Assembly: GCF_029510815.1 (NCBI RefSeq)
Contig: NZ_CP120360.1
Location: 1,364,001 to 1,428,000, forward strand
Length of the DNA: 64,000 nt
Origin: Janibacter sp. DB-40
GTDB taxonomy: Bacteria > Actinomycetota > Actinomycetes > Actinomycetales > Dermatophilaceae
Reading direction: 5' to 3'
Shown: positions 13,754-34,942 of the stretch, piece by piece
Numbering within the stretch: the stretch's first letter is position 1
Layout of the letters: every line of letters starts with the position of its first letter
Translations under genes and position numbers: made by a program
Notes under the pieces: generated by a model
Databases searched by the model: none
What the model was told of the DNA's origin: nothing
Seen by the model: only the letters and a program-made list of their open reading frames with translations

Positions 13754-14623
13754 TTGAACGTGCGCGTTGGGCTGCCTCACCTGTCGAGCGAAGCCCAGGT
13801 CTTCTGGGCCGCTCGCATCGACGAAGCTGAGTCCCAGGATCCGTCGATCTTCACCCCCAACGGCTACGTCGTCAGCGCGTTGCAGGCGGCGTGGTCGGCG
13901 ATCCACCACACGCCGGTCCCGGACGAGATGGCGTGCCTGCACCTGCAGCACACCCTCGACACCGCGATCCGGATCGGCAACGACACCGACACCGTCGCGG
14001 CGATCGCCGGCGGCCTCCTCGGTGCTCGGTGGGGAGCCTCGGCGGTGCCCGCTGCATGGCGTCGGATCGTCCACGGCTACCCGGGCCGTACGGCGGAGGA
14101 CCTCGTCGAGCTCGCCTTCCTCGCGACACGCGGCGGAGAGCCCAACGGGTACGGCTGGCCCGGCTGCGAGTACATCCCGTACTGGCAGGCCCACCTGCCG
14201 GTCCTCGTGCAGCACCCTTTTGACGAAGGGGTGTGGCTCGGCAACGTCAAGGCGCTCGACGACCTGCCGCAGGAGATCACTGCCGTGGTCAGCCTCTGCC
14301 TCACTGGCTCGAAGCAGGTCCCAGCTGGCGTGCTTCAGGTGCCCTTCCGCCTCATCGATGAACCAGAGCGCGAGGCGAATCTCAACGTCGAGCACGTCAT
14401 CACCGACGCTGCCCGGACCGTGGCCGACCTGCGGGCCGAAGGCCACCAGGTCCTCATCCACTGCGTGGCCGCCGAGTCGCGAACCCCCACGGTGGGCATC
14501 GCCTACGCCATGATCGGCGGTGTGGATGTGGAGACCGCGACGAAGGGGTCTGCGCGGCTATGCCCGACGCTTCATCCAATCGAGGTTCTGTCCGTCCTCA
14601 GGGAGGTCTTGCCTGACAGGTGA
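13754..14623 (+). pseudogene. Truncated duplicate of the ADP-ribosylglycohydrolase/phosphatase
   Basis: This copy matches the C-terminal ~285 residues of the protein at 2711-4273 with roughly 20 substitutions up to the ETATKG segment. It lacks the first ~235 residues, including the metal-binding GEWTDDTSM, so it cannot be an active hydrolase. The IGNDTDTV metal site and the CX5R phosphatase loop (HCVAAESRTPTVG) remain. An apparent loss of one G in the run at 14545-14548 shifts the last ~25 residues; restoring it gives a tail GVCAAMPDASSN that resembles the intact copy. A free phosphatase domain could still be made from the TTG at 13754, but no ribosome site is evident. Confidence 0.8.
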
Positions 14624-16254: not shown

Positions 16255-16992
16255 GTGGGGCAGGTCAGCACGTGGGGTGAATCGAGCGCTCCGACGGCTT
16301 CAGCTCGTGGCGGATGCGCTCGGTTCCTCGGATCGGATGCGCTCGTTGCGGCGTTTCTGCGGGCGGCGCTAGGCGCGCAGGCTACTGACGCTCGGTCGGT
16401 CCTCCTCCACGGGAAGCACGTGTCGGAATTCGGCGTCCCGGCTGTGTCACGCATCGCGTGCCTCCAGCGGCTCCCTACGTGGAACGAGCAGGTCGAGACG
16501 ATGGAGTCCGCCCCACCGATCCGAGACTTGATCGACCACGGCCAGCACCTCAAGGCGACGCACGACCCCGACGCAACGGTGGCAGCTCACCCATCGGCCA
16601 ACGGACTCGCAAGCGAGTTACGCGCCAAGATCGCCTCTCACGGGGGCGACCCTGCCCCAGTGCGACTCCTCAAGGCCGAATTGACTCAATTGCTGGAAGG
16701 GAACGATGAGCTGTGCAAGCAGCCACGCGTATCACGTCAAGAAATCAACTGCTTTGAACGTCGCATCGCCGTGGATGCCCTCGGCGCGATCCACCACGAC
16801 GACCCGCATACCACACCCTCCCCGCCTCCGACCCCAGACCGTCCAAGCCCAGAGGACCCTCGGTGCCAAACATCTACGACAACCTGGACCACACAACCAT
16901 GCTTGGTCCCGCTCTGCGCACCTCGCTTGAGCACTTCGAGACGGTCGACGCGGCGACCGGCTACCTGGACCTGCGGGGTTGGGACTCGTTAG
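16255..16992 (+). CDS. Doubtful ORF preceding the helicase operon
   Basis: GTG 16255 follows a strong GGAGGAGG (16243-16250), which argues for a real gene, but the last 130 bp overlap the helicase out of frame and there translate into a Thr/Arg-rich string that looks artificial. The central part (around PIRDLIDHGQHLKATHDPD and QEINCFERRIAVDALG) has plausible protein composition. One explanation is an ancestral gene ending near 16860 whose stop was lost by a small indel. No function can be assigned; it could be a small leader protein of the defence operon. Confidence 0.35.
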   Translation: MGQVSTWGESSAPTASARGGCARFLGSDALVAAFLRAALGAQATDARSVLLHGKHVSEFGVPAVSRIACLQRLPTWNEQVETMESAPPIRDLIDHGQHLKATHDPDATVAAHPSANGLASELRAKIASHGGDPAPVRLLKAELTQLLEGNDELCKQPRVSRQEINCFERRIAVDALGAIHHDDPHTTPSPPPTPDRPSPEDPRCQTSTTTWTTQPCLVPLCAPRLSTSRRSTRRPATWTCGVGTR

Positions 16993-19900
16993 CGGACGTG
17001 GTCGAGGCCAAGGCGTTCGAGGAAGGCGATCCTCCGGTGGCACGGGTGCTGGTCGGGATGGTTGCCCCAGCGGATTCACAGCAGCTGCTGGACTCCCTCA
17101 AGGAGCAGGTGCAGCCGCCAGCCTACGGAGCCGACATCGTCGATATGGACAGGGCCCGGGAGCGGCGCGACCAGCTCGTCAAACACTTGCGCAACCAGTT
17201 GATGCGCGGCCTGGCAACCGCCAAGGGCCAGCAAACCCTCCAGACGCTCAAGGGCCAGCTCCAAACGGGCCGTGTCCAGATGAAGGTGTTCACCCAGCGG
17301 CCCCTGCACGGCAAGACCTACATCTTCCACGCACCGGATGACCCATTCGCGAGCAAGTGGGGCTACGTCGGGTCCTCCAACCTGACCGGCGCCGGCCTGC
17401 ACAACAACCTCGAGCTGAACATCGACGTCCAGGACTCCGACGCAACAGCGAAGCTGGCCACCTGGTTCGACGAGCAGTGGGAGGACCCCTTCTCGCTACC
17501 CATCACCGAAGAGATCATCGAGCTGATCGCCAACTCGTGGGCCGAGCAGGACCAGCCCACCCCCTTCGAGGTCTACCTCAAGGTCTGCCACGCCCTGAGC
17601 CAAGACGCCCGTGACGGCATGGGCTATGTCCTTCCGAAGTCGATGAGCACCCTGTTGCTCGACTACCAGGAGAACGCCGTGCGGACGCTCTCCCGGCGCA
17701 TCGTGCGCCGTGGGGGGACCATGCTCGGCGACGTCGTCGGTCTGGGCAAGACGCTGACCGCCGTCGCGACCGCTCTGATGCTGCAGGCCGCCGAGGACTA
17801 CTCCACCCTCGTGCTATGCCCCAAGAACCTCGAGAAGATGTGGAACGAGCACCTCGAGAAGTACGACATCACCGGCCGCGTGGTGCCCTACTCCATGGCC
17901 GAGAAGGTGCTGCCGGAACTGAAGAGGTTCAACCTCGTCATCTGCGACGAGTCGCACAACCTGCGCAACAACAGCACCGTCGCCTACGAAGCGATCCACG
18001 ACTACATCCGCGCCAACAGCTCCAAGGTGCTGTTGTTGACCGCGACCCCGTACAACCTGGCCTTCACCGACGTGGCCAACCAGCTCGCCCTGTACATCGA
18101 CGAGGACGACGACCTGGGCTTCACGCCCAGCGCGGCCCTGGCCAAGGACCCAAACCTGCGGACCAAGGTCGATGGCAAGATCGACACCTTGGCTGCCTTC
18201 CGCCTCTCGGAGGAGCCCGAGGACTGGCGACGGCTGATGAGTGACCACCTCATCCGCCGCACCCGCTCCTTCATCAAGCGCACCGCCCGCACCGAAACGG
18301 TGCGCGGCCCGGACGGCTCGCTCGTGGAACGGGAGTACCTGCAGTTCGCCAACGGGGCGAAGTTCCACTTCCCCACCCGCGTCGCCACCCCGATCAGCCA
18401 CCCTTTCAGCAGGGACGACCCGGCCCGGCTGATGGAAGACGAGGCGACCCTCGACGCTGTTCGTGATCTCGAGCTGCCCCGCTATCGCCTCGCGGACTAC
18501 GAAGACCCCAAAGCACGTAAGACTGACGAGGACCGAACGATCCTCGAAGACATTCGCTCAGGGCGTGGCAATGTCAGCGGCTTTGTGCGCATCGGCCTGT
18601 TCAAGCGGCTCAGCTCCTCGGGGCACTCCTTCGTCCTGTCCCTGCAGCGTCAACGGGCCCGCAACGAGCTGTTCATCTACGCCATCGAGGCTGGCAAACC
18701 GATTCCTATCGGTTCATTGAGCAACCGACAGGTGATGGTCAGCGACGAAGATGTCGAGGCCAACGCCGACACGGGTGGAAGCCTCGCCACCCGGTACGAG
18801 GCCATGGTCGACTCCGCACCGGCCAAGACCCGCTGGATCAACTCCGGCGTCTTCAAACCAACACTGCGGGCCGAACTCGAGCAGGACAACGAGGCCATCA
18901 ACGACATGCTCGACCGGTTTGGCAACTGGGATGCCAGTCGCGACTCCAAGATCAACGCGCTCATCGACCTACTCGCGCACGACCACAAGGGTGAGAAGGT
19001 CCTGGTTTTCACTGAGTACAGCGACACCGCGTCCTACGTCGCCTCCGCCCTCACCGCGGCGGCCATCAACAACGTCGGGCTGGCCACCGGTGACAGCGAG
19101 AATCCGTCGGATCTTGCCCGTCGCTTCTCCCCAGAGTCCAACCTTCTCCCCGGGCAAGACTCCACCACCCCGGTGACGGTGAAGGACCCGATCGATGTCC
19201 TCGTAGCTACCGACGTTCTCTCCGAGGGACAGAACCTGCAGGATAGCCACATCGTCGTCAACTACGACTTGCCGTGGGCGATCATCCGCATCATCCAGCG
19301 CGCCGGCCGCGTCGACCGCATCGGACAGAAGTCCGACGTGGTCAACGTCTACCTGATCACCCACGAGAAGATCGAAGAGCAGATCAACCTGCGCAAGCGG
19401 ATCAAGCACCGCCTGGGTGCAGCAGCCCAAGCCTTCGGCTCGGACGAGCGCTTCTTCGGCGGCGACGAGGAAGTCAGGATCCTCGACGACCTCTACAAGG
19501 GCCGCGTCGGCGACGACGAGGAAGCCGAGGCCGACGTTGACGCCGTCAGCGAAGCCTGGCTGGTCTGGTCTCAAGCGCAGGACAAGCACCCCGCCATCAC
19601 CCAGAAGGTCCTGACCATGCAGGACATGGTCCACACCACCCGCGACCAGCGCCTCAACGAACCCGGCGGATCGGTCAGCTGCTTCGTCTCGACCGAGTCG
19701 GGGGTCGACGCATTCGCCACCGCCAGCATCACCCCCGACGGGCAGGGCAGCACCAAGCTCCTCACCCCGCTCGAAGCGATGACCCTCTTCCGCGCCGAAC
19801 CGACCACCCCGACCGTGGCGATTCGCGAAGACCACTTCGAGTGGGAAGCAGAACTCGTCCACGGACCCCTACACATCGAATCCCTGGCGGCAGGCAACCT

Positions 19901-20165
19901 CAAAGGCATCCGAAAGTGGACCTGGCAACGACTCGGTGGCACCGTCTTCGGCAATGCAGCCGGCCCCGGCCTCGACGCCCTCCACGAGCGGCCACTCACA
20001 GCCCATGCGACGGTGCGTCTGACGCAGGCGCGACGCAACAAGTACAGCCTCGACGACCTCGCAGCGCTCATCGCCCAACTGCACGGCGAAGACCGCCTCG
20101 TCATCGGCACACGAGACTCCGACACCATCAAAATCGTCTGCTCACTGGGGGTACAGAACGCATGA
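16863..20165 (+). CDS. PLD-domain SNF2-type helicase
   Basis: 1100 aa, GTG start behind AGAGGA. The N-terminal ~220 residues are phospholipase-D-like, with an HxK motif (HGKTYIF near 148) and GSSNLTGAGL near 170. A SNF2/SF2 motor follows: GDVVGLGKT near 291, ICDESHN near 361, LLLTATPYN near 385, and QRAGRVDRIGQ near 813. The C-terminal ~250 residues are unassigned. The PLD module may cut or bind nucleic acid while the motor translocates on double-stranded DNA, as in other restriction-linked helicases. The stop overlaps the methyltransferase start (ATGA), so the two are coupled and probably act as a restriction-modification pair. Confidence 0.85.
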   Translation: MPNIYDNLDHTTMLGPALRTSLEHFETVDAATGYLDLRGWDSLADVVEAKAFEEGDPPVARVLVGMVAPADSQQLLDSLKEQVQPPAYGADIVDMDRARERRDQLVKHLRNQLMRGLATAKGQQTLQTLKGQLQTGRVQMKVFTQRPLHGKTYIFHAPDDPFASKWGYVGSSNLTGAGLHNNLELNIDVQDSDATAKLATWFDEQWEDPFSLPITEEIIELIANSWAEQDQPTPFEVYLKVCHALSQDARDGMGYVLPKSMSTLLLDYQENAVRTLSRRIVRRGGTMLGDVVGLGKTLTAVATALMLQAAEDYSTLVLCPKNLEKMWNEHLEKYDITGRVVPYSMAEKVLPELKRFNLVICDESHNLRNNSTVAYEAIHDYIRANSSKVLLLTATPYNLAFTDVANQLALYIDEDDDLGFTPSAALAKDPNLRTKVDGKIDTLAAFRLSEEPEDWRRLMSDHLIRRTRSFIKRTARTETVRGPDGSLVEREYLQFANGAKFHFPTRVATPISHPFSRDDPARLMEDEATLDAVRDLELPRYRLADYEDPKARKTDEDRTILEDIRSGRGNVSGFVRIGLFKRLSSSGHSFVLSLQRQRARNELFIYAIEAGKPIPIGSLSNRQVMVSDEDVEANADTGGSLATRYEAMVDSAPAKTRWINSGVFKPTLRAELEQDNEAINDMLDRFGNWDASRDSKINALIDLLAHDHKGEKVLVFTEYSDTASYVASALTAAAINNVGLATGDSENPSDLARRFSPESNLLPGQDSTTPVTVKDPIDVLVATDVLSEGQNLQDSHIVVNYDLPWAIIRIIQRAGRVDRIGQKSDVVNVYLITHEKIEEQINLRKRIKHRLGAAAQAFGSDERFFGGDEEVRILDDLYKGRVGDDEEAEADVDAVSEAWLVWSQAQDKHPAITQKVLTMQDMVHTTRDQRLNEPGGSVSCFVSTESGVDAFATASITPDGQGSTKLLTPLEAMTLFRAEPTTPTVAIREDHFEWEAELVHGPLHIESLAAGNLKGIRKWTWQRLGGTVFGNAAGPGLDALHERPLTAHATVRLTQARRNKYSLDDLAALIAQLHGEDRLVIGTRDSDTIKIVCSLGVQNA

Positions 20166-22924
20166 CCGACCCACTCGTCGCCCGCACCGAGGCCCGCGAC
20201 TATCAGCGCCTCTTCCTGCAAGACCTGCATTGGTCCGCACCCGACCACCCACCCGTCGTCTACGACCACGAGGGGCGCTCGGTGACTGCGACCAACGTCT
20301 CCTCCTTCAAGGGCCTACGGGTGTGGGCGGTCAACGAGAAGCCCGAGTCCAAGCTCGAGGCCGAGATCGACCGGCTGTTGGCGCAGAACAGCACCGACCG
20401 GATCGTCATCTTCCACGACGACAACACGCAGGTCTGGCGCTGGCCAGCCAGACGCGTCACAGGAAACAGCACCGCCACTCGCCTGAGTCGCCACCGCCAC
20501 ACCACCGGCAGCGCCGATCCAACCTTCGCCGCCAAACTCGACGTCATCCGCCTACCGCACGACCGCGGGCTCAACGTCAACGAGGTCGTGGCCAAGGTAC
20601 GCGAAGCCTTCGACATCGAAGCGCAGAACGAAACCAAGGCCGCATCAAAGCTGATGGCCCGCATGTACGCGGCCATGACAGATGCCTACGCCGGCCTGCG
20701 GACGACCGCTACTGAGCGGGATCACCAGATCTCGGTCACCCTCGCCAGACTCCTATTCCTGATGTTCGGCGACGACACTGATATGTGGCGGCCCAACCTC
20801 TTTCGCGACTACATCTACAACCACACCGCCCAAGATGGATCCGACATCGGGCAACGGATCACTGACCTGTTTGCCTACCTCGACACCAGCGACACCGACC
20901 GGACAGACACGCCGGAGGCTCTCGTCGAATTCCCCTATGTCAATGGTGGCATCTTCGAAGAAGCCATCACCCTCCCGGCCAGCATGACCGCCGAGTTCCG
21001 CACCGTCGTGCTGGAAGCCTGCGACCGCGACTGGGCAACCATCAGCCCGGCCATCTTCGGATCCATGTTCCAATCCGTGCGCGATGCTGAAACCCGTCGT
21101 CAGCTCGGGGAGCACTACACCTCCGAAGAGAACATCCTCAGAACGCTTGATCCGCTCTTCCTCGACGAACTTCGTGCCGAGTTCAACCACATCAAGACTC
21201 TCGGTAGATACGAAGCCGACAGGCTCCGCAAGTTGCGCGACAAGCTCGGCCGCATCCGATACATGGACCCAGCCTGCGGCTGTGGCAACTTCATCATCGT
21301 CGCCTATCGCGAGTTGCGGGACCTCGAACTGGCAATTATGGAACGTCTCCAAGAGATAACCGGCGACAACCCGATGCTCTTAGCCAATGTCGGCCTAAAA
21401 GTCACCCTGGACCACTTCTACGGCATCGAGATCGATGAGTGGCCCGCCCGCATCGCCGAAACCGCAATGTTCCTCGTTGACCGCCAATGCGACCTCAAGC
21501 TCACTGCCTCTCTCGGTTTCGCCCCCGATCGGCTGCCAATCCAAGAGCAGGCCACCATCGTCGTCGGTAACGCCCTCCGCACAGACTGGGCCCGAGTGTG
21601 TCCTCCCGAGGGTGAAGTCGTGATCGCCGGCAACCCTCCCTTCTTGGGACACGCCACCCGCACCGGGGAACAGGCCGAGGACTTGCGTCAGGCCTGGGGG
21701 AAAGACGACATCAGCCGCCTGGACTACGTCACTGGGTGGCATGCCCAAGCACTGCGCTACTTCCAGGGCCGCGACGGGCTCTTCGCTTTTGTCACCACCA
21801 ACTCGATAACTCAAGGTGACCCGGTGCCACACCTTTTCGGGCCGATCTTCGACGCTGGTTGGGTGATCAAGTTCGCCCACCGCACCTTCCCGTGGTCCTC
21901 CGAGGCAGTCGGCAAGGCCGCGGTGCACTGCGTCATCGTCGGTTTCACAACGGTGCTGGGCAAGACCAAGCCAAGGCTGTTCGACCACGCCCCCGACGCG
22001 CATGCGGCCGACCGTCGGGTGAACACAATCAACGCCTACCTCGTCGAAGGCCCCAACGTCTTCATCACCAAACGCTCCAGACCCCTCGTCGCCGGATTGC
22101 CCGAAGCCACCTTCGGGAACATGCCACGGGATGACGGCAACCTCGTCGTTCTGCCCAACTCCTTCGACGAAGTCCACCGCGACCCAGTCGCTCGCAAGTA
22201 CCTTCGGCCGTTCATCGGAGCCGAAGAACTTCTGAACGGGAAGAAGCGATGGTGCCTGTGGCTTACCGCTCTCGACCCTGAGGACCTGCACCGCAGCAGT
22301 ATCCTTCAAGACCGTGTCAACGCGGTACGTCGGTTCAGGCTGAAAAGCACCGCCGCAAGTACGCACAAGATGGCAGAGACGCCGCACTTGTTCGGCCAAC
22401 GCCCTGCCCTCTACACCCAGCCATACCTCGTCATCCCCCGTGTCTCCAGTGAACTCCGCGATTACTACCCCGTCTGCCGCGTCGACTCGGGCGTGATCGC
22501 AAGCGATGCCACCTTCACCGCAGCTGACCCTGACGGGCTGCTTTTCCCAATCATCTCTTCTGCCATGTTCATGGCCTGGCAGTCCACTGTCGGCGGTCGA
22601 TTGGAGTCACGACTGCGCTTCTCCAACACGATCGTGTGGAACAACCTGCCCATCCCCACGTTCAGCCCTGAGACCAGGCAGGCACTCATCGCAGCCGGCA
22701 AGGCACTTGAGGTCGCTCGCGAGGCCTATCCAGATAGAACCATGTCCGACTTGTACCGGACTACAAGTATGCCCGCTGACTTGCGTGGGGCCCACGATGA
22801 TGTCGATGCAATCGTGGACGGTGCCTTCGGAGCCCGAGGCGCGACACCCACGCTGGAGGAGCGACAACGGCTGCTCTTCAAGGCCTACGAAGAGACTACG
22901 ACGGCACAAACTGGGGCGCGCTAG
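20162..22924 (+). CDS. MmeI-like DNA N6-adenine methyltransferase
   Basis: 920 aa, the usual length of MmeI-type enzymes. Motif I is DPACGCGNF near 368 and the catalytic motif IV is GNPPF near 489, giving an adenine-N6 methylase. Further family blocks include FVTTNSITQGDPVPHLF and FAHRTFPWSSEAVGKAAVH. Residues ~620-850 should be the target-recognition domain. MmeI proteins carry a PD-(D/E)XK nuclease at the N-terminus; I see no clear D-(D/E)XK there, so cutting may be left to the coupled PLD-helicase or to genes downstream. The likely job is to mark host DNA at an asymmetric site. Confidence 0.85.
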   Translation: MTDPLVARTEARDYQRLFLQDLHWSAPDHPPVVYDHEGRSVTATNVSSFKGLRVWAVNEKPESKLEAEIDRLLAQNSTDRIVIFHDDNTQVWRWPARRVTGNSTATRLSRHRHTTGSADPTFAAKLDVIRLPHDRGLNVNEVVAKVREAFDIEAQNETKAASKLMARMYAAMTDAYAGLRTTATERDHQISVTLARLLFLMFGDDTDMWRPNLFRDYIYNHTAQDGSDIGQRITDLFAYLDTSDTDRTDTPEALVEFPYVNGGIFEEAITLPASMTAEFRTVVLEACDRDWATISPAIFGSMFQSVRDAETRRQLGEHYTSEENILRTLDPLFLDELRAEFNHIKTLGRYEADRLRKLRDKLGRIRYMDPACGCGNFIIVAYRELRDLELAIMERLQEITGDNPMLLANVGLKVTLDHFYGIEIDEWPARIAETAMFLVDRQCDLKLTASLGFAPDRLPIQEQATIVVGNALRTDWARVCPPEGEVVIAGNPPFLGHATRTGEQAEDLRQAWGKDDISRLDYVTGWHAQALRYFQGRDGLFAFVTTNSITQGDPVPHLFGPIFDAGWVIKFAHRTFPWSSEAVGKAAVHCVIVGFTTVLGKTKPRLFDHAPDAHAADRRVNTINAYLVEGPNVFITKRSRPLVAGLPEATFGNMPRDDGNLVVLPNSFDEVHRDPVARKYLRPFIGAEELLNGKKRWCLWLTALDPEDLHRSSILQDRVNAVRRFRLKSTAASTHKMAETPHLFGQRPALYTQPYLVIPRVSSELRDYYPVCRVDSGVIASDATFTAADPDGLLFPIISSAMFMAWQSTVGGRLESRLRFSNTIVWNNLPIPTFSPETRQALIAAGKALEVAREAYPDRTMSDLYRTTSMPADLRGAHDDVDAIVDGAFGARGATPTLEERQRLLFKAYEETTTAQTGAR

Positions 22925-23014
22925 CCCCATTCAGGGAGGATGACAGGATGCCCCTAACACCTCATGCAGCGAGGCGCGGGTCAAGACATCTGGGTAGAAG
23001 GGGGGTTCACCAGG

Positions 23015-24577
23015 ATGGGTAGTGCTAGTGCCGCCGACTTGGAAGACGCATTGTCCATGCACCTCAGCGAGGTGGGCTTTGACGTCTACCGTCCACAATC
23101 CGAAGAATTGCCGTGGTTGGTCGCGGCTGATCTGCATTTGGGGCTGCTTGTTATCGACCTCGCGGACGATGAAGAGCTCGGAATGGTGGACCTGAACCAA
23201 AAGCTGGGTCGTCTGCGCAAGGACATTCCAGAAATCTCACGGGTACCCGCCCAGAGACTTGTCATCACCCACGGCGCGACAGCATCCAGTGAACAGATTG
23301 CGACTGCCGAGGATGCTGTCGCGGGCGCGTTTCTCAAACACCTTGCACGAAAGGGCATGGAGGACGAGGCGCGGAGCGCGGTATCCGCTCACTTCGCTCC
23401 TCGTCTCAACATCGACGTCCCGCGACGCGACCCCCTGTCCGATGAGGGAGCGGCTGAGAGGGCTGTTCAGCGTTTGGTTCTTGACGCAGAGCAGAGTGAG
23501 ATTGCCTGCCGGCCTGTAGACGATGTCCTCCTCCTCACGGGGCCACCGGGCAGCGGGAAGACGCTTGTCCTGGCCGCGAGGGCTAAGTGGTTGGCGCGCC
23601 AGCATCCCAGTTGGAGGATTGCACTTCTCTGCTACAACCGGGCGCTCGTCCCCTACTTGGAAGCACTCGTCTGGGGACATGCCAACATCAGCGTGTACAC
23701 CGTAGGAAGGTTTGCAAGTCTGCTGCGCGTGCGAGTCTCCCTGGATGATGAGGAGCGGGCCGAGCGCGACGTCGACCGGGCGTTGAGGGAGATCACGCCA
23801 GCGTTTGACGCCGTTCTGGTCGATGAGTGGCAGGACTTCATGGATGCATGGACACGTCTGATCCTCGGCGTGGTTCGGCCGGGCCGGGGCGGTGTGGCCC
23901 TCGCCGGTGACCCGAAGCAGGCGCTCTACCGCGACGGTGACTGGGATGTTGCCCTGGCAGGGCGGACGGTCGAGATGGCAACTCTCTCCAAGCCGTATCG
24001 ATCGACGAGACAAATTCTCGACGTAACCTCTGCGCTGGATCCGACCATGGATGTCTCTGGCAGAGACCAAGCTCTCGACGGCCAACCCGTCGATCTTGTC
24101 TGGGCGGAGAACGTCGCCAGTAGCGCGGATGCCGTTGCGAGAGACGTTCGATTGCTTTTGGATGAAGATGAACGCCAGCTTCAGGATATCGGTGTCCTGG
24201 TGACGCGGAAATGGGACATGGGAAGGGTGCTTCATGCCCTGAAGAACGCGGACATCCCGGCCGAACCCGTGTACCCCAATAAGGCGGCAGAGTTTGATCT
24301 GTCCAAGCCCGTCGTCAAGGTCCTGACCGTACACTCCGCCAAAGGTTATGAGTTCGACGTCGTCTTCCTTGTAGGCATGGAGCACTTGGCCAACCCTGAC
24401 GGGAGTGTTCGCGCCAACAGGGAGGGACGCAGCGGCTATGTCGGCGCGACCCGGGCCAAGGATCAGCTAGTGCTCACCTACAGCAAGGAGAACGTCTACC
24501 TGGACCGGATTCGAGCGTTGCCCGCTGATCTCGTTCGTCAGTGGGTCTGGCCCGACGACTATCCCGAGGAGGACTGA
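23015..24577 (+). CDS. UvrD/Rep-like SF1A helicase with divergent N-terminal domain
   Basis: 520 aa from ATG 23015 behind AAGGGGGG; an in-frame ATG at 22964 lacks a ribosome site. Residues ~1-160 form an alpha/beta domain (LVAADLHLGLLVIDLADDEE) reminiscent of NERD-like nuclease domains but without a clear active site. The motor carries GPPGSGKT near 175, VLVDEWQDF near 269, LTVHSAKGYEFD near 438 and GYVGATRAKDQL near 475. It starts 90 bp after the methyltransferase, and its stop overlaps the kinase start by one base. It probably unwinds DNA for the same defence system; compact UvrD-like proteins of this kind are common in such loci. Confidence 0.8.
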   Translation: MGSASAADLEDALSMHLSEVGFDVYRPQSEELPWLVAADLHLGLLVIDLADDEELGMVDLNQKLGRLRKDIPEISRVPAQRLVITHGATASSEQIATAEDAVAGAFLKHLARKGMEDEARSAVSAHFAPRLNIDVPRRDPLSDEGAAERAVQRLVLDAEQSEIACRPVDDVLLLTGPPGSGKTLVLAARAKWLARQHPSWRIALLCYNRALVPYLEALVWGHANISVYTVGRFASLLRVRVSLDDEERAERDVDRALREITPAFDAVLVDEWQDFMDAWTRLILGVVRPGRGGVALAGDPKQALYRDGDWDVALAGRTVEMATLSKPYRSTRQILDVTSALDPTMDVSGRDQALDGQPVDLVWAENVASSADAVARDVRLLLDEDERQLQDIGVLVTRKWDMGRVLHALKNADIPAEPVYPNKAAEFDLSKPVVKVLTVHSAKGYEFDVVFLVGMEHLANPDGSVRANREGRSGYVGATRAKDQLVLTYSKENVYLDRIRALPADLVRQWVWPDDYPEED

Positions 24578-27500
24578 TGGCAGATCTGAGAGTCAAGGGC
24601 GAGTACGTCGGACCCGGCGAGCAAAAGACCGCGGAGCACCTCGGCGGGGCGTTGCCCGACGACTGGGTCATCTTCGCCGGTCGCAAGCTTCCCGGGCCGA
24701 ACCGGGACGACGCCGACTTGGTGATCGTGGGGCAGAATCTCCTCTTCGTCGTCGAAGAAAAGGCATGGGGCCCCACCGTGGTCGTCGACGACAACCACTG
24801 GTACGTGGGCAACGATCCAAGACCAAATCCCCTCAACCGGGTGGCTCAGGTGGCACGCATCGTGGCGACCACGTTGAAGCAGAACGCCAAGGGGTACAAG
24901 AACCTGGGGCGCGCCCACCGGGTGGTGCCGGCTGTGGTGTTGAGCCACTCCAATCTGCAGGTGCTGGGGGGAGCGAACCACGACGGGCGGGAGCACATCT
25001 GGAGCCTCAAGGAGGCGGCACCTGCTCTCACCCGCCTCGATCGCGAATTCGACGGCCCGTCGCTGGGGCATGCACGTCGATCAGCGATGGCCTATCTGGA
25101 CGATCTGCCCAAACCGGTGGGGAAGCCCACGCTCGGCCCCTACCGATTGGAGTCCCGACTCTCCAGTGCGGGCCAGGAACAGTCCTGGTCCGCTGTCGAC
25201 TCCGCAGGTGAGCGCGTCATTCTCAAGTCATACCCCATGGCTGCCCTCGGCGGGCATGGGGATCCCGGAGAGTTCCTCCGGCGCGAGTATGTCGCTGTCA
25301 ACCGTGTCGCCGACCTCGGTCGGACTTGGCGGGCGTTCCCACCCTTCAAGGACGACCCCAGCGGCCTGTTCGTGGTCCCTGTCGTCCCGCCCCGCGGGGG
25401 GATGACGCTCCACAAGTCCGTGCAGAAGGCCGTTCCGGAGCGCGTTGATGGCAGGCTAGACACCGACTTGGCTCGTGCTGTGGTGATCGACGCCTTCGAA
25501 GGTCTGAACGATCTGCACGCCGCCGGGCTGGTGCACCGAGCGTTGCACCCTAAGCGAGTGTGGCTGCACCAGAGGCGACGGATCATGTTCAGCGACCTCA
25601 ACCTCGCACGGGTCGTCGGGGACGAGTCGATCGCCCTGTGGGCGGTCGACGGCGACATGAGCGAGGATTTCCGAGCCCCTGAGTGCGCCGCCAGCATCTC
25701 CTTCGCCACGCCGAAATCTGACGTCTACAGTCTGGCCATGTGCACGGCCTACTGGCTGCTGGGCATGGACGTGCTGGATCTTACGCACGAGCAACTGGGG
25801 CAAGCCGTGGTGCGCGCCTATCCGTGGGCCGAGCCAATGCTGAAGGCACTGTCGGGCGACGCGAAGGATCGGCCAGACGCAGAGGAGTTGGTCGGCGAAC
25901 TCAGGCCTGTGCGCGCGGAGACACCCGCAGTCACGACCGAGCTGGGCGTTTTCGAAGAAGGAGGTCTTATCGACGACCGCTACGAGATCCTCGAGGAGTT
26001 GGGGCGCGGCGGGTTCGCTACGTCGTGGAAGGTCCATGACCGCCAGCGCGAGCTGTCCCTGGTCCTGAAGCAGTTTCATGCCGATCTGCCGGAGACCGTC
26101 CGGTCCGAATTCCGTGCAGCCCACAGCCTGCACTCCGACTACCTTGGCGGGGTCTACGATCTTCACGTCAACGAGGCACCGTTGTACATCGTCTCGGAGT
26201 ACGTCGAGGGAGAGAGTCTCGGGGACGAGGGGCAGGCCTTCACCGTTGAGCAGCTGAGGGCGATCGCAGCAGACGCGCTTCGCGGGTTGGAATACATTCA
26301 TGGTCGTGACTTGGTCCACGGGGACGTCACCCCGTCCAACGTCATCGTCGCTCCCGACGGAAACTCCGCGAAGCTCATCGACTTCGGTCTCATGGTGCGT
26401 TCGGGTGAGCAACCGGCTGGCCAGACGCCCAAGTTCGCAGCACCGGAGCTGGTCAAGGGCTCGCCGGCGACGATCGCTAGCGACATGTTCGGAATCGCGG
26501 CGACGATGGCCTACGCCATGCTGGGTCGGACGATCAGCTCCACCGCTTCGGGCAGCTTTGAGCTGCTTCCCCCGACACCGGATGAGAAGTCAACCTGGGG
26601 GCAAGGCGGCGAACGCCTGTTGGAGATGTTCCTCAGCAGCGCCACAGAGGACCCTTCTGAGCGACCGTCCGCCAAGGAGTTTCTCAGCCTCCTGCGCAGC
26701 ACCCAGCTTGCATCACGTCCTGAGGAGCTGACGGCCAATGACAAGTATGTGGTCAATGAGAACGTCGGAGCGATCAGACGGCTTTACCGCGCGAGCTCGG
26801 AGGGCAATGCTGGCAACCGTGGGCTGGATGACAAGTTCGCGCTAGCGACATACGTCCCGACGCGTCTGGACGAACGCCTTCTTCCGCGGGTGCTCGCGGG
26901 AGAGCTGGACGTCGTCCTGCTGAGCGGGAACCCTGGAGACGGTAAGACCTCCCTCTTGGTGCAGCTCGGCCACGAGCTCAAGGGATCGCCAGAGGCGAGG
27001 ATTCTGCACGAGGACGACGCTGGGTGGGCCATTCAACACGGTGACAGGGCATTCCACGCAGTCTTCGACGCGAGCGAATCACATGGGGAGCTCACGTCCG
27101 ACGAGCTCGTGAAAAGGGCACTGGATCCTGTCCTGTCACAGAAGCAAGGCCCCGCCACGGCGCTGATCGCAATCAACGACGGACGCTTGCACCAGTTCTT
27201 CGAGGACAACAGTGACGTGTACGAGGACTGGTGGTTCGAGGTCCAGGACCAACTCGCGGGGAAGGATGTAGGCGAGTCCAGGGTGGTGCTTGTCGACTTG
27301 AAGCGTCGCGCCTTCGCGTCGGCAGACGGTGAGGGGCTGGCCGACAGGACCCTGAAATCCTTGGTCCACCAAGATCTGTGGGAGGACTGCTCGTCGTGTG
27401 CGGCCCGCTCCCTGTGCCCGATCCTCAGCAACCGAGAGAAGTTGGTGGGTGAGGGAGCCGCAGCCTTCGGCGAACTCGTCTTGATCAGCCACCTTCGCCG

Positions 27501-28365
27501 GCGCCGCCGAGCTACCTTCCGAGATGTCAGGTCCGCTGCAGCTTGGCTCATCACCGGTGACAGGGACTGTTCCGACGTGCACAAACTGGTGAAAGAGGGG
27601 AAGGACCCGCGACTGATGCCCCACGCACTCACCCACGACCTCGGTTTCGTGACCGACAGCAACGACTACCTCGTCGACGAGTGGAGCGACCTCGACCCGG
27701 CGCTGGTCCCGAGTCCGGCCGTTGACCGTGTCCGCCGGCTGTCGACCACTGCCGATAGAGAGCCCTTCTTCCGAAGTGCCGACAGCGCTGCTCGTGCCAT
27801 CTACTTCGGCGATCGCTCTTTTCAGGATGTCGAACGGCACCAAGTGAGGGTGTACCGGTACCTGGACGAGTTTCTCGGCATGCTCAGAGATGCGGATCCC
27901 GTTACGACGAGGGACCGGCTGCTCCTGGGCATGAGCCGACTTCTTGGGGCACCTGGTTACGGGCAGCCCGGACTGGCGTTCAGCATGGGCGTCAGGGACT
28001 CCGGGTGGGCGGTCCTGCACGGCATCGAGCGGGAGTCCTTCAGCGTGCGTGTCGCCGACCCCACCCATCGCTATCTGGAGACGATCCCCGATCTCGTCGA
28101 GCTGCAACATGTGGATGGTTCGGTCCGGAGCACCCTCAGGCTCAATCTCGACACGGCGGAGATGATCCTGCGTGCAGCCGACGGTGAGCTCGTGGACGAC
28201 CCAGCTTCCGACGCGATTCGCCAAGAGATCGACGCCTTCGCCGGCCAACTGAGCATGCATCCGTCCAAGACTGCACACATCGTCGACTCGTCTGGCTCCG
28301 TGTCCACGGCGACGATCTCTGGTGTCAACATCGCCTTCGACATCGAGGGAGGTCTGCCAGCATGA
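24577..28365 (+). CDS. NERD-pseudokinase-kinase-ATPase fusion (MAD6-like)
   Basis: 1262 aa. Domains: NERD-like nuclease-related domain (~12-125; DDADLVIVGQNLLFVVEEKAWG); a first kinase fold (~185-445) whose catalytic loop reads HRALHPKRV, lacking the catalytic Asp, and whose DFG is SDLN, so probably a pseudokinase; a second kinase (~466-720) with GRGGFATSW, VLKQF, HGDVTPSNV and IDFGL, so probably active; a C-terminal P-loop ATPase with SGNPGDGKTS near 782 and a Cys cluster (C-x2-C-x5-C) near 937, resembling the DptF-type ATPases of phosphorothioation-dependent restriction. Kinases with NERD domains occur in MADS (MAD6) and BREX type 2 (PglW). It likely senses infection and phosphorylates partner proteins. 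Coupled on both sides by 1-4 bp overlaps. Confidence 0.8.
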   Translation: MADLRVKGEYVGPGEQKTAEHLGGALPDDWVIFAGRKLPGPNRDDADLVIVGQNLLFVVEEKAWGPTVVVDDNHWYVGNDPRPNPLNRVAQVARIVATTLKQNAKGYKNLGRAHRVVPAVVLSHSNLQVLGGANHDGREHIWSLKEAAPALTRLDREFDGPSLGHARRSAMAYLDDLPKPVGKPTLGPYRLESRLSSAGQEQSWSAVDSAGERVILKSYPMAALGGHGDPGEFLRREYVAVNRVADLGRTWRAFPPFKDDPSGLFVVPVVPPRGGMTLHKSVQKAVPERVDGRLDTDLARAVVIDAFEGLNDLHAAGLVHRALHPKRVWLHQRRRIMFSDLNLARVVGDESIALWAVDGDMSEDFRAPECAASISFATPKSDVYSLAMCTAYWLLGMDVLDLTHEQLGQAVVRAYPWAEPMLKALSGDAKDRPDAEELVGELRPVRAETPAVTTELGVFEEGGLIDDRYEILEELGRGGFATSWKVHDRQRELSLVLKQFHADLPETVRSEFRAAHSLHSDYLGGVYDLHVNEAPLYIVSEYVEGESLGDEGQAFTVEQLRAIAADALRGLEYIHGRDLVHGDVTPSNVIVAPDGNSAKLIDFGLMVRSGEQPAGQTPKFAAPELVKGSPATIASDMFGIAATMAYAMLGRTISSTASGSFELLPPTPDEKSTWGQGGERLLEMFLSSATEDPSERPSAKEFLSLLRSTQLASRPEELTANDKYVVNENVGAIRRLYRASSEGNAGNRGLDDKFALATYVPTRLDERLLPRVLAGELDVVLLSGNPGDGKTSLLVQLGHELKGSPEARILHEDDAGWAIQHGDRAFHAVFDASESHGELTSDELVKRALDPVLSQKQGPATALIAINDGRLHQFFEDNSDVYEDWWFEVQDQLAGKDVGESRVVLVDLKRRAFASADGEGLADRTLKSLVHQDLWEDCSSCAARSLCPILSNREKLVGEGAAAFGELVLISHLRRRRRATFRDVRSAAAWLITGDRDCSDVHKLVKEGKDPRLMPHALTHDLGFVTDSNDYLVDEWSDLDPALVPSPAVDRVRRLSTTADREPFFRSADSAARAIYFGDRSFQDVERHQVRVYRYLDEFLGMLRDADPVTTRDRLLLGMSRLLGAPGYGQPGLAFSMGVRDSGWAVLHGIERESFSVRVADPTHRYLETIPDLVELQHVDGSVRSTLRLNLDTAEMILRAADGELVDDPASDAIRQEIDAFAGQLSMHPSKTAHIVDSSGSVSTATISGVNIAFDIEGGLPA

Positions 28366-29972
28366 GGTTCGCCATCCCCAAGGGGCTTCCGCAGAACTCG
28401 TTGGTTACGGAGAACGTCATCAACGTCGAGCTGAACGACACGGACGTGGACCGAATGATGACCAAGATCCTCGAGCGCGGCGTGAAGAGGGGCCGGGTCG
28501 CGGGTTCCAAAGTCGACACGAAGGACTACGAGGGATACCTGAGGAGACTCCAGGCGTCGCCACACCTCACGGGGGTCGGGGGTGCTCGGGGGTTGGAAGT
28601 GCTCGACGGCTGGATCCGGTCCTCGGTACTGGTGCAGGAGACGGCGGGGCTTCGTCGGGACACAGTCCAGATGGGCTATCTGACGCCCCTGACGGTCGCT
28701 GCTTACCGCACGGGTCTGCCCCGGAGTCAATCGCGTAACAGAAAGGCCGACGCGCTGGTTTACAAGGCCATGGCCCGCGACCTCGGGAGCCGTGGCGAGA
28801 CGAACGTGTCTGCGGTGATCCAGAGGTTGTTCGTGGACACGTTCGGTCGTGGTGTGGACCTTGGCCCATATCCGTCCACCAACCCGGCGTACAACGGGTC
28901 GGAGGTGGACATCGACACTCTGCTGGCTCTGAGGTTCATCGAGCAGTTCACCGGTAACGAGGCCCACAAGAGGGAGCTGGAGCGACTAGATCCTCCTGTT
29001 CCTCTGGCCGTGGACCCCATCGCCCGGGACCTCTTGGAATTCTTGACCTTCTACGGATCCAACGTCCCCGTGGCGGAGGCTTATACCCAGTTCTCGGCTC
29101 TCCTCAGCTTGCGCCTGTTCCAGCTGCCGATCGTCACTGCGCATGTGGTCCGGGCACTCCTGTCCGGGGAGGCTGCTCCTCCCTCGACCGGAAACCCGTG
29201 TGCTCAGTACGTAGATTTTGTCCGTCGACGCGGCCACCCATCGGACGAGCTGTCCCGCATGTCCGTCCAGCGCGACCTTGAGGTAATGCGGACCTTCTTC
29301 GGCGACCGTCTCCTCATGCGTTCCCTCCAGGCTGCAGTCCCGATGCTCCCGAGCCGACCGAACCTGGGAGAGACGGCTGCGGACGAGCTCTCCGGACTCG
29401 CGAACCTAAAGAACGATCCCATGATGCAGATGGCTCTGAAGATGCAGATCAGTCAGATCGAGCAAGGGCTGGCGCCCGATGACGAGGGCCGGTCCTTCAT
29501 CGGCGAGCTCAGGGAGTCCGAGGGTCTCAACGCTGCGGATCAGCTCACGGCGATCCTTGTGGAGGGCCTGCGCAAGCGGGGCTTGGAGAACCAGGTCAAG
29601 TGGTTCCACTCGGCAGGCGGGATCAAGAAATCCTACGGCCTGCTCAAGGGGGAGCTCCGGTCCCGTGCCACCTGGCGCTACTCCCTGTCGGACGAGACGC
29701 TCGTCGCCCTTCTCTGCATGATCTTCGTCGACGACAGCGGCCGGCGCACTACCTCACGGCTCCCTATCCGCGAGGTCTTGGCTCGGTTGGAGAGGCGTTT
29801 CGGCCTGCTCATCGCCACACCGCCACGGGGACTCGACTCCGCGGACGCCCGTGCTGGTGCCGCAGAGAATCTATCCGCGTTCACCCAACGCATGAAGCTC
29901 CTCGGCTGCTTTGAGGGGTTGTCCGATGACTTCAGTGCTCAGTTCGTGACCAGGCCGAGAAAGGCTGTGTGA
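28362..29972 (+). CDS. MAD7/DptG-position protein, unknown fold
   Basis: 536 aa, ATG in a 4-bp overlap with the kinase stop. No catalytic motif is visible; the protein is mostly helical (e.g. MMQMALKMQISQIEQGL near residue 355), soluble, without Cys clusters or membrane segments. By position between a kinase/DptF-like ATPase and a HerA-like ATPase it corresponds to MAD7 of MADS and, more distantly, to DptG of Dnd restriction. It is probably a structural adaptor of the complex. The identification rests mainly on gene order. Confidence 0.55.
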   Translation: MRFAIPKGLPQNSLVTENVINVELNDTDVDRMMTKILERGVKRGRVAGSKVDTKDYEGYLRRLQASPHLTGVGGARGLEVLDGWIRSSVLVQETAGLRRDTVQMGYLTPLTVAAYRTGLPRSQSRNRKADALVYKAMARDLGSRGETNVSAVIQRLFVDTFGRGVDLGPYPSTNPAYNGSEVDIDTLLALRFIEQFTGNEAHKRELERLDPPVPLAVDPIARDLLEFLTFYGSNVPVAEAYTQFSALLSLRLFQLPIVTAHVVRALLSGEAAPPSTGNPCAQYVDFVRRRGHPSDELSRMSVQRDLEVMRTFFGDRLLMRSLQAAVPMLPSRPNLGETAADELSGLANLKNDPMMQMALKMQISQIEQGLAPDDEGRSFIGELRESEGLNAADQLTAILVEGLRKRGLENQVKWFHSAGGIKKSYGLLKGELRSRATWRYSLSDETLVALLCMIFVDDSGRRTTSRLPIREVLARLERRFGLLIATPPRGLDSADARAGAAENLSAFTQRMKLLGCFEGLSDDFSAQFVTRPRKAV

Positions 29973-32900: not shown

Positions 32901-34942
32901 ACGTCCAGCACAGCGTGGGTGCCGTCCTGTCAACTCTGGCCGTTGTCTCCGGGCGTCTGGCGTTGCGCTTGCTCGAGAGCAGCAACCGGGCGAGGGAGGC
33001 AGTCTCCCTGGCCGCAGTGGTAACTCATCTGCGAGCCCGCGGTGACTTGGACGGCCTGATCGTCGTGCCCGTAGACGCACACCCGGAGATCTTCGGTGTC
33101 GCGGCTCGGGATGCGGGACCTGCGCGACGCTGTGATCTGCTCCTCGTGAAGGTCAGCCAGCGGTCGTTCAAGATCGAGTGCGTTGAGGTGAAGTCACGCA
33201 AGGAGGCTCGCCTCCCTCAGGTGCTGGCCGACCACATCGTCAACCAGGTCCAAGACACCAGACGGGTTCTGGAGTCGCGGTTCTTCGCCAATGACCCGCC
33301 CCGCATTGACATCAAGCTCCAGTTGGCCCGCTTGGCGAGCGTTCTGCACTACTACGCAGATCGCTCTGTGCGGAATGGTCTGATCCCCGAGGAGAGGGCG
33401 GCCGACGTCCATCGCCACATCGACCGGGTGACAGAGGGCCAGGTCGTACCTGAGATGTCGTTGCGCGGCTATGTGATCAGCTTGGAGGGCGCTGAGGGCT
33501 TCAAGAAGAAGTACGGTGAGGTCCCGCTCACGGTCCTGACCGCTGCGGACTTGAGGCAGGTCGGCTTCACCACCGTGCTGCCCCCATCGCCACAAGACCC
33601 ACAGTCGACCCACACGGAGGAGCCGCTTCGACCCGAGACCTCCGAGACGCCCCGGGAGACCCGCTCTCCCAGCAGAGCGCCACAGCCTGCTGAGCCCGAG
33701 AGCCAAGGTGGGGGGCGGCCGGACGAGCACCCGTCCGACGAACCTGGTCCCGCTGCTGAGGGCTTGGAGGTGACCGCAGGTGCCAAGGTGCCCGTCCCGG
33801 CCGGCTCCAGAACGATCAAGGAGACCGGCGAAGAGGTTGTCCGGAGGGAGACCACCGCGACTGGTACCAGCGATGCGGAAGTGGCAGCCGGGCCTGCGGA
33901 AGCGAGCCATCCCACAGAGGCCGAGACCGTATTGGGGGTCGATGCGCATTCTGCGGACGTCCTGTGGCCAGTCAGTACCAAGGGGAGTCCGCACGCCTTC
34001 CTCCTTGGTATACCGGGGCAGGGGAAGTCTGTTTCCACCCGACACATCATCCGAAGCTTCGCGTCACAGGGACTGCCGTCACTCGTCTTCGACTTCCATG
34101 GCGATATGGCTAAGGACCCGCCGGCGGGTGCCACGGTCCTCAACGCTGCGGAGGGGCTTCCCTTCAGCCCCTTTGAGGCAGAGGTCAGGGTCGGCCGCCC
34201 AATCAACACGACTGCGTGGGAGATATCGGAGATCGTCGCCTACGTCACCAACCTGGGTGAGATTCAACGGAACCATGTCTACGACGCACTCCAGTCGATG
34301 TATGCGACGCACGGTTGGGAAGGCACCACGCCCGGAGACGGTCTCCCGGTGATCAGCGAGTTCGGGCCCGCTATGGAGGCAGCTGAGGCAGAGTCTCGGG
34401 GTCGGAACGCTCGCCAGAGGCTCCGCCCGATGACGGACTTCGGTCTCTTCCGAGATGATGCGGACGAGTCCTTCGACCTCTTGAGCGCATATCGCGGCGG
34501 GGTGGTTGTCGACCTAAGCCAGCTCGGTCTCGAGGCGGTCCAACTGTTCGCAGCCTCGTTCATGCTGCGCAAGGTCTATCGGGAGATGTTCAAGTGGCCG
34601 CAGGATGGTTCGATGAAGCTGGCCGTGGTCCTTGACGAGGCACACCGGATGGCGCGGGACGTCACCCTTCCCAAGCTGATGAAGGAAGGGCGAAAGTACG
34701 GCATGAGTGTCGTCGTGGCGAGTCAGAACGCAGATGACTTCCACAAGGATGTCCTGGCGAATGCCGGCACCAAGATCGTCTTCCGGACGAACTACCCGGC
34801 CTCTCGCGGAGTGGCCGGGTACCTTCGGGGCAGACGTGGCGCAGACCTGAGCGTCGAGATTGAGAAGTTGGGTGTCGGCGTGGCATACGTAGCAACGCCC
34901 GATCATCCACAAGCCCGCCGGACCTACATGTCGCTGGGATGA
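29972..34942 (+). CDS. PD-(D/E)XK nuclease-HerA-like ATPase (MAD8/DptH-like)
   Basis: 1656 aa from ATG 29972 (one-base overlap); a GTG at 29969 is an alternative. The first ~1000 residues are unassigned, with beta-rich parts. Near 1053-1075 the pattern CDLLLVKV ... IECVEVKSRKEA fits a PD-(D/E)XK nuclease core. A low-complexity Pro/Glu/Thr-rich linker (~1210-1310) joins it to a HerA/FtsK-like motor: GIPGQGKS near 1348, LVFDFHGD near 1370, LAVVLDEAHRM near 1550, and VVVASQNADDF near 1580. Size and layout match the large ATPases DptH and MAD8. It is the probable effector that translocates along and cuts non-self DNA. Confidence 0.8.
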   Translation: MSSSCRELLASTLAEHLASQLQDAEPGHCVRVDDVNADLAPNLAAALARQLPSAAVHILRAHPQEERDIAAERAIEIRNRKQQVCLLVVPAGEGHAASSLDNSFNRIPILDAFTQVERLLTDGIEDENVRDLVSRNRRGLRAQGGREAWSLFLAQLCIDPVVTSFGENLWMIGLVPDRGPDPGARVERNRLAVQAISRPNRPAASTDERFTVAGLQEGAWRAPLRQFCEQRGAELANPRVWTRTLAESLPELTFDNWVLAEDVAEDLAEMEIVSFIRAGGALEKWSKLKQGADGQLVLEVPEDRPGPITVKWKTSPPRVAGVARWELSVVPPDDLRTDDTIPLASSTVPGGRRQATVKVELEEDSLSEGTRFVVSVKALGEHGESINLISGEPAAADSQEFQIVGGPEVDSSPRRTVAESIPEAVLLAAHGGLDDLTEDLPSWDLEGQVFSVRLGNKRAVQIRICAPLISCQRAATANPDRALRFQMGGAYGTPLDPSGVEEIEVPLPPALSKARSEFLTALAATPHRDTMEATAWEGGLRDLAAAYAASYKRALEQQSGQHLESLLQMDTLRLDVLRNNTVVRAVVVLPTHPLRAAWSATHDMVLRGWARELTELSPRGARSRMVDPGQVSQVVPANLPFTVPCEGEVAVYAEELTFGAGLYLVPGQVESEAAAESVASVLGLQRAGSTMRASSQMVAERIRAYEGAHNPGGTLRMLAANPGSGELLAGAIRQPGRADVEDEDDPRRLELLAYSDSPSFTRPVPALADLQRSVRRKDLTRKTTHLVPPVSLSVRPMKQFKSDPQDAHLALMQDIGSPTVAFAQAPERQPAFENLLVPLVTRSYRAAGDLVWESAAAAGGGEGGLPAVHRAHQRAVARYYSGPDSAVPSVRITLDREGQARIAAAHSRADWVIGVDRFVGVDLFESGGEGPFGEAYILDYAPDFVEGIGERLTVTTGNRREVEVLLEEAMHELGLANVQHSVGAVLSTLAVVSGRLALRLLESSNRAREAVSLAAVVTHLRARGDLDGLIVVPVDAHPEIFGVAARDAGPARRCDLLLVKVSQRSFKIECVEVKSRKEARLPQVLADHIVNQVQDTRRVLESRFFANDPPRIDIKLQLARLASVLHYYADRSVRNGLIPEERAADVHRHIDRVTEGQVVPEMSLRGYVISLEGAEGFKKKYGEVPLTVLTAADLRQVGFTTVLPPSPQDPQSTHTEEPLRPETSETPRETRSPSRAPQPAEPESQGGGRPDEHPSDEPGPAAEGLEVTAGAKVPVPAGSRTIKETGEEVVRRETTATGTSDAEVAAGPAEASHPTEAETVLGVDAHSADVLWPVSTKGSPHAFLLGIPGQGKSVSTRHIIRSFASQGLPSLVFDFHGDMAKDPPAGATVLNAAEGLPFSPFEAEVRVGRPINTTAWEISEIVAYVTNLGEIQRNHVYDALQSMYATHGWEGTTPGDGLPVISEFGPAMEAAEAESRGRNARQRLRPMTDFGLFRDDADESFDLLSAYRGGVVVDLSQLGLEAVQLFAASFMLRKVYREMFKWPQDGSMKLAVVLDEAHRMARDVTLPKLMKEGRKYGMSVVVASQNADDFHKDVLANAGTKIVFRTNYPASRGVAGYLRGRRGADLSVEIEKLGVGVAYVATPDHPQARRTYMSLG

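Follow-up and report, generated by a model that had tools for sequence, protein, structure and literature searches.

Two probable defence modules in a variable island of Janibacter sp. DB-40: a restriction-modification pair and a DndFGH-type gene set led by a UvrD-family helicase

A stretch of 64,000 nucleotides from Janibacter sp. DB-40 (contig NZ_CP120360.1, positions 1,364,001 to 1,428,000; hereafter the window) contains six long open reading frames on the plus strand, g1–g6, at window positions 16863–34942. The question raised by this locus is whether the six genes form one defence system or more. An earlier note on the same DNA had read them as a single hybrid, in which an MmeI-like methylase, a PLD-SNF2 helicase and a UvrD-like helicase form the front end of a MAD6-7-8-like module. 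We consider it likely that the locus is instead made of two adjacent defence modules within a variable island, a restriction-modification pair (g1-g2) and an attack complex of DndFGH type that has a UvrD helicase of its own (g3-g6). The basis for this reading is the gene order, the tight spacing, the motifs, the folds predicted for g5 and for the methylase part of g6, the congruent inheritance of g3-g6 and the separate occurrence of the two modules.

The coordinates bear out the description of six same-strand genes, the last four of which overlap by 1–4 bp. To this they add an overlap absent from the earlier note, the 4 bp (ATGA) shared by g1 (16863–20165) and g2 (20162–22924). The genes g3 (22964–24577), g4 (24577–28365), g5 (28362–29972) and g6 (29972, or 29969, to 34942) overlap by 1 bp between g3 and g4, 4 bp between g4 and g5, and 1 (or 4) bp between g5 and g6. 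The sole gap in g1-g6 lies between g2 and g3 and measures 39 bp; with the alternative g3 start at ATG 23015, the point where several relatives begin to align, it would be 90 bp.

The search for g5 relatives covered genome contigs, where it gave 11 loci, as well as 186 genomes of the family and 396 of the order; a MAD7 model of wider reach was applied to 396 genomes of the phylum. The family search returned the window's gene and that of O. faecis (G515), and no relative in the 15 same-genus genomes that it included; the order search gave the window's gene and one in G669, whose place on the contig coincides with that of the Kineosporia gene; the phylum search gave the window's gene and two MADS-like loci. 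The window genome itself (one contig, 3.35 Mb) has a single MAD7 match. Altogether 13 core loci were found through MAD7, the window and O. faecis included. In the stretches of 21–50 kb read around the 12 relatives, a UvrD gene stands upstream of MAD6-7-8 in 10, making 11 of 13 with the window. When the UvrD alignment alone was used to search 148 genomes, G1016 was the one strong hit other than the window (nine candidates scored per genome among the matches listed), and the three other core genes lie downstream of it. Pooling the MAD7 and UvrD searches gives 14 loci, one of which came from the UvrD search; UvrD accompanies the core in 12 of the 14 and MmeI in 1. No g2 match was obtained by tblastn at E 1e-5 in the stretches around any of the 12 relatives, and neither g1 nor g2 has a match in the 34 kb fetched around G1016. 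The core of O. faecis is 77–88% identical to that of the window, yet the 40 kb fetched there hold no g2 match and, for g1, a distant SNF2 only. The expectation that the first three genes would travel with the last three thus stands for UvrD and fails for the MmeI methylase, which lies beside the core in the window only.

The four genes g3-g6 are also inherited together. Their junctions range from +8 to -16 bp in the 11 measured loci with all four genes, their pairwise distances correlate at 0.958–0.988, and their trees have 7–8 of 8 splits in common. Plasmids were considered as a source of the core and rejected: no MAD7 match was found on 72,556 plasmid records, the plasmid MAD6 matches are distant relatives only (23–27% identical), and no plasmid MAD8 match covers 80%. 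Among viral contigs, 0 of 20 pattern matches had a MAD7 relative.

The g1-g2 pair has a distribution of its own. At least 80% of g1 is carried by 20 plasmid records, and g2 lies directly 3′ of g1 on the same strand in 10 of the best 11; the eleventh, a Microbacterium plasmid, is absent among the matches listed for g2. A g1 search of 394 genomes of the class gave matches at 1e-20 in 17, the window included, and in all five strong hits besides the window (46–65% identical to g1) g2 is the next gene. No match to g3-g7 occurs in nine stretches around these relatives, of which four come from plasmids (flanks of up to 12 kb) and five from genomes (flanks of 1.5 kb). An Ornithinimicrobium plasmid (L092, 8712–14756) has its g1 and g2 relatives annotated as fragments and may thus carry a broken copy.

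The domain assignments of the earlier note (PLD-SNF2, MmeI-like, UvrD-like and MAD6-7-8-like) were upheld by profiles. The g3 protein matches UvrD_C and AAA_19, with the motifs GPPGSGKT, DEWQD and TVHSAKG intact. In g4 the profiles identify NERD, protein kinase and P-loop regions. Among the 13 aligned members the NERD D..(E/Q)K motif is present, the first kinase-like domain has HR[AG] in place of HRD and so lacks the catalytic motif, and the second kinase domain retains its motifs (H[GR]D..N and DFG). The P-loop module, with GNPGDGKT and NDGR in 13 of 13, agrees with a DndF P-loop carrying an ND motif. The predicted structure of g5 shows the DndG fold by fold comparison alone, the MAD7 profile having no match among PDB sequences. 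In g6, which profiles identify as a HerA-type ATPase, the nuclease and HerA motifs are intact and the methylase-like part has no catalytic motifs. This agrees with the DndH plan in the three parts compared, namely inactive methylase, restriction endonuclease (motif only) and HerA/FtsK motor; the full plan also has N-terminal SNF2-like, beta-sandwich and target-recognition parts. The fold search with g6 returned mostly small-molecule methylases, and no PD-(D/E)xK entry among the matches listed; its methylase fold, like the fold of g5, is a prediction.

In the g1 protein Pfam recognizes PLDc_2, RE_NgoFVII, SNF2-rel_dom and Helicase_C, an NgoFVII/PLD-type nuclease fused to an SNF2 helicase. LHGK and GSSN are kept in all 37 aligned g1 sequences (30 of 120 listed homologues, six locus sequences and the window), and the SNF2 motifs GDVVGLGKT, DESH and GRVDR are intact. 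The g2 protein matches profiles for the MmeI helical spacer (MmeI_hel), methylase, target-recognition domain and C-terminal domain, and retains the catalytic NPPF and DPACGCG. Like MmeI (type IIL/IIG, PDB 5HR4), it has methylase and target-recognition domain in a single chain followed by a C-terminal domain. Unlike MmeI, it has no recognizable N-terminal nuclease and is coupled to a PLD-SNF2 partner. The alignment to 5HR4 begins only at residue 186, the MmeI nuclease has no profile or sequence match in g2, and the first ~150 residues show no conserved D..(D/E)xK in 10 sequences.

From these families we infer each biochemical step, and the trigger, in what follows. By its sequence g1-g2 is a restriction-modification pair built of known parts, and would be ATP-dependent. 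The MmeI-type protein g2 would recognize an asymmetric site and methylate adenine on self DNA; g1, with its HKD nuclease and SNF2 translocase, would most likely cut unmethylated DNA in partnership with g2, since g2 has no recognizable MmeI nuclease. This division of labour is suggested because the g2 N-terminus lacks a conserved motif whereas the g1 nuclease motifs are invariant. The rarer unit, g3-g6, probably attacks foreign DNA. DndF-like g4 may act as sensor and switch, through a nucleotide-binding P-loop and a kinase controlled by the pseudokinase, with the NERD nuclease as co-effector. DndG-like g5 would bind DNA, and DndH-like g6 would scan it via the dead methylase and recognition region, travel by its HerA motor and cut at the PD-(D/E)xK site. 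The UvrD helicase g3 may open or process DNA (ends, forks or nicks) where the complex acts.

The domain plan of DndFGH, including DndF variants with NERD, pseudokinase and kinase domains, is given by Rakesh et al. 2024 (PMC10853773), where, in the parts drawn on here, the link to phosphorothioate genes is described as not universal. The core matches that plan in the DndG fold predicted for g5, in the layout of g4, where NERD and two kinase domains are followed by a P-loop with an NDG motif, in the combination of dead methylase fold, PD-(D/E)xK motif and HerA in g6, and in not being bound to one modification system. It differs in its co-inherited UvrD gene upstream of g4, the same parts of that source making no mention of UvrD. 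The open-licence literature, outside which most subscription journals fall, yielded no account of a UvrD tied to DndFGH. The NERD-pseudokinase-kinase order of g4 recalls PglW of type 2 BREX (PglW profile 8.7e-16; PMC12839542), but g4 runs on into a DndF P-loop module with an SspF match. Against the PADLOC SspFGH profiles, g4 matches SspF at 2.1e-19 and g5 matches SspG at 5.9e-5, both weak.

MADS, reportedly described by Maestri and colleagues in 2024, is taken here from citations and family names. The core is like it in the order and homology of MAD6-7-8, and single proteins of two core relatives pass the NCBI MAD6 or MAD7 cut-off. The window proteins match all three equivalog profiles below the curated values (g4 354.6 bits against 460, g5 389.7 against 410, g6 51.6 against 175), in keeping with the MAD6-7-8-like label first given to them. 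That the locus is not a classic MADS also holds: among the 10 window proteins scanned there is no mad5 and a single weak mad2 match (g2, 52 bits). UvrD stands before MAD6 in the core, and in each of the MAD6, MAD7 and MAD8 trees one split (support 0.999–1.000) sets the 13 members apart from an outgroup of seven sequences, of which six are MADS-like and one comes from Rhizobium. A mad2-type methylase occurs in all six MADS-like loci. In G107, Piscinibacter, Bacteroides and Hymenobacter it is part of the uninterrupted row of genes ahead of the kinase; in G193 and the second Actinomadura set it lies ~9 kb and ~11 kb upstream, respectively. In the Rhizobium locus no annotated methylase is present within 13 kb upstream of the kinase gene. 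On sequence grounds g3-g6 is of the DndFGH/MADS678 kind, novel in having a UvrD helicase as tightly linked partner, in the place that methylase genes take in related systems. The suggestion of an undescribed actinobacterial subtype is fair for these four genes and does not extend to all six.

The g1-g2 pair may also be compared with ARMADA and class I DISARM (in the parts of PMC12458937 drawn on), which likewise have an SNF2-type helicase gene and a large single-chain methylase gene; the window pair differs in its MmeI-type methylase and in the PLD nuclease fused to the helicase. ARMADA joins a YprA-like helicase to an SNF2 helicase and a PglX-like methylase; no YprA-like gene is apparent among the 10 window proteins scanned with PADLOC. 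A title search of the open-licence literature found no description of the pair.

Modification genes are common around the core, a profile-confirmed methylase lying within 11 kb of it in 9 of 13 loci; this count covers the 13 loci found through MAD7, comes from partial neighbour scans and has no matched control rate for defence islands. Besides MmeI in the window, these are a IIG methylase in O. faecis (ARMADA-like, with SNF2 and DruE-like helicases), a type I methylase in Actinopolymorpha, IIG methylases with PLD-SNF2 in N. caldifontis and N. zhouii, BREX in Nocardioides Soil805 (BrxC, PglX, BrxHI and PglZ), a type III methylase in Actinotalea, MADS in Actinomadura (mad2, mad3 and mad5) and HsdM in Nonomuraea. 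None was found among the few open reading frames scanned in Micromonospora (1), a metagenome-assembled genome (2), Kineosporia (4) and Actinomycetospora (4). The O. faecis genes, downstream of the core (L038, 1–12231, reverse strand), form an ARMADA-like trio of DrmD-like SNF2 helicase, type IIG methylase and DruE/YprA-like helicase. In Actinomadura xylanilytica (L053/L071) the UvrD-DndFGH unit and a MADS lie within ~42 kb, the latter ordered mad2, mad3, mad5 and then, ~8 kb on, kinase, MAD7 and MAD8. Near the Kineosporia core (L059, 2980–6919) are a viperin-like (pVip) gene, an integrase and an IS110 transposase.

That g3-g6 might read the methyl marks of whichever modification system adjoins it, here the mark of g2, is possible though unlikely. 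The methylase neighbours, the dead methylase fold retained in g6 and the methylase carried by MADS-like loci all suit such an effector. The adjoining system, however, differs in most loci, no methylase was found in 4 of 13 (partial scans; three contigs below 35 kb), and defence islands are rich in methylase genes; the explanation is kept because the neighbour rate stands without a control. In a broader version, also unlikely, UvrD-DndFGH would be related to MADS but free of a methylase, with the helicase replacing methylase and S subunit and self-marks borrowed from whichever restriction-modification system, BREX or MADS adjoins it, so that one effector would serve many modification systems. 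The six-gene hybrid, with the MmeI-type methylase and PLD-SNF2 helicase as modification and recognition side of a MAD6-7-8-like effector, now appears improbable. The common strand and short gap would suit it, but g2 has no match in the stretches read around any of the other core loci and complete g1-g2 pairs occur elsewhere with no core seen in the stretches read. Phosphorothioate-dependent restriction, as carried out by DndFGH beside DndABCDE, would fit the g4-g6 trio but is very improbable and was rejected on the DndC search (TIGR03183, E 0.001), in which 0 of 13 core genomes gave a match; the search had no positive control (0 of 14 control genomes pass the cut-off), and Ssp-type modification genes were not searched for.

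Several points weigh against the division into a restriction-modification pair and a UvrD-led DndFGH-type unit. No terminator was found between g2 and g3, in a scan that detects sites no more often here than in shuffled DNA. A methylase and PLD-SNF2 pair adjoins g3 in N. caldifontis and N. zhouii, which speaks for the hybrid; the methylase is, however, of another type and the PLD-SNF2 protein 27–33% identical to g1. Two of the 13 MAD7-found loci (the Micromonosporaceae metagenome-assembled genome and Actinomycetospora) have no UvrD and no remnants of one, so UvrD is not indispensable. The remaining g1 matches of the class search (26–30% identical) show no g2 in 1.5-kb flanks, and the pairing is thus known for the nearer g1 lineage only. 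To these may be added the mad2 match of g2, the g6 nuclease call, which is made from a motif, and the fold predictions, which cover only g5 and the methylase part of g6. An antiphage role, too, is suggested by the families.

The genomic setting is that of a variable region. Pieces of the window as far as ~14.6 kb recur in the same-genus genomes G461 and G460, and the similarity resumes at the LON gene (37.8 kb); in G465 the shared DNA is LON only, and in G456 it is LON and DNA further left. Six stretches were fetched from the four genomes and none matches the interval 14.6–37.8 kb, and the locus therefore lies in a variable island before LON. The GC content is 0.62–0.66 at 14–38 kb and 0.68–0.75 from 44 kb onward. 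About 800 bp are present twice (~3443–4234 and 13790–14587), and the two copies match a single stretch in G461 and G460; the second lies where the variable part begins on the left. An ADP-ribosylglycohydrolase, the end of which weakly matches dual-specificity phosphatase (1973–4273), belongs to the part of the island that is shared, and a helicase with RNase_H_2 and AAA_12 domains, common to G461, lies at 5261–8776. An Rfam scan of 12–40 kb found nothing reaching the gathering threshold.

Downstream of the core, g7 (35290–37593, plus strand) encodes a HelR/HelD-like ATPase (profile matches below cut-off), a possible accessory. Within the 12 other core genomes it has its best two matches (539 and 523 bits, the next reaching 315) in Kineosporia and Actinotalea, in each case encoded immediately upstream of the core. 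In the 393 further genomes of the class that were searched, E 1e-115 is passed by a single match (G1037), and the 40 kb fetched around it contain no match to MAD6-8. As a HelR-like gene lies beside the core in only 3 of 13 loci and this relative has no MAD6-8 match in that stretch, g7 was rejected as an obligatory part.

The analysis sets apart two systems that would otherwise bear one name. With the DndG fold predicted for a member of the MAD7 family, MADS678 and DndFGH seem to be a single kind of effector. The unit identified here is a natural one of DndFGH type, tightly linked to a helicase and not to a modification enzyme, and how DndFGH-type complexes without dedicated modification genes would tell self from invader thereby becomes a testable question.

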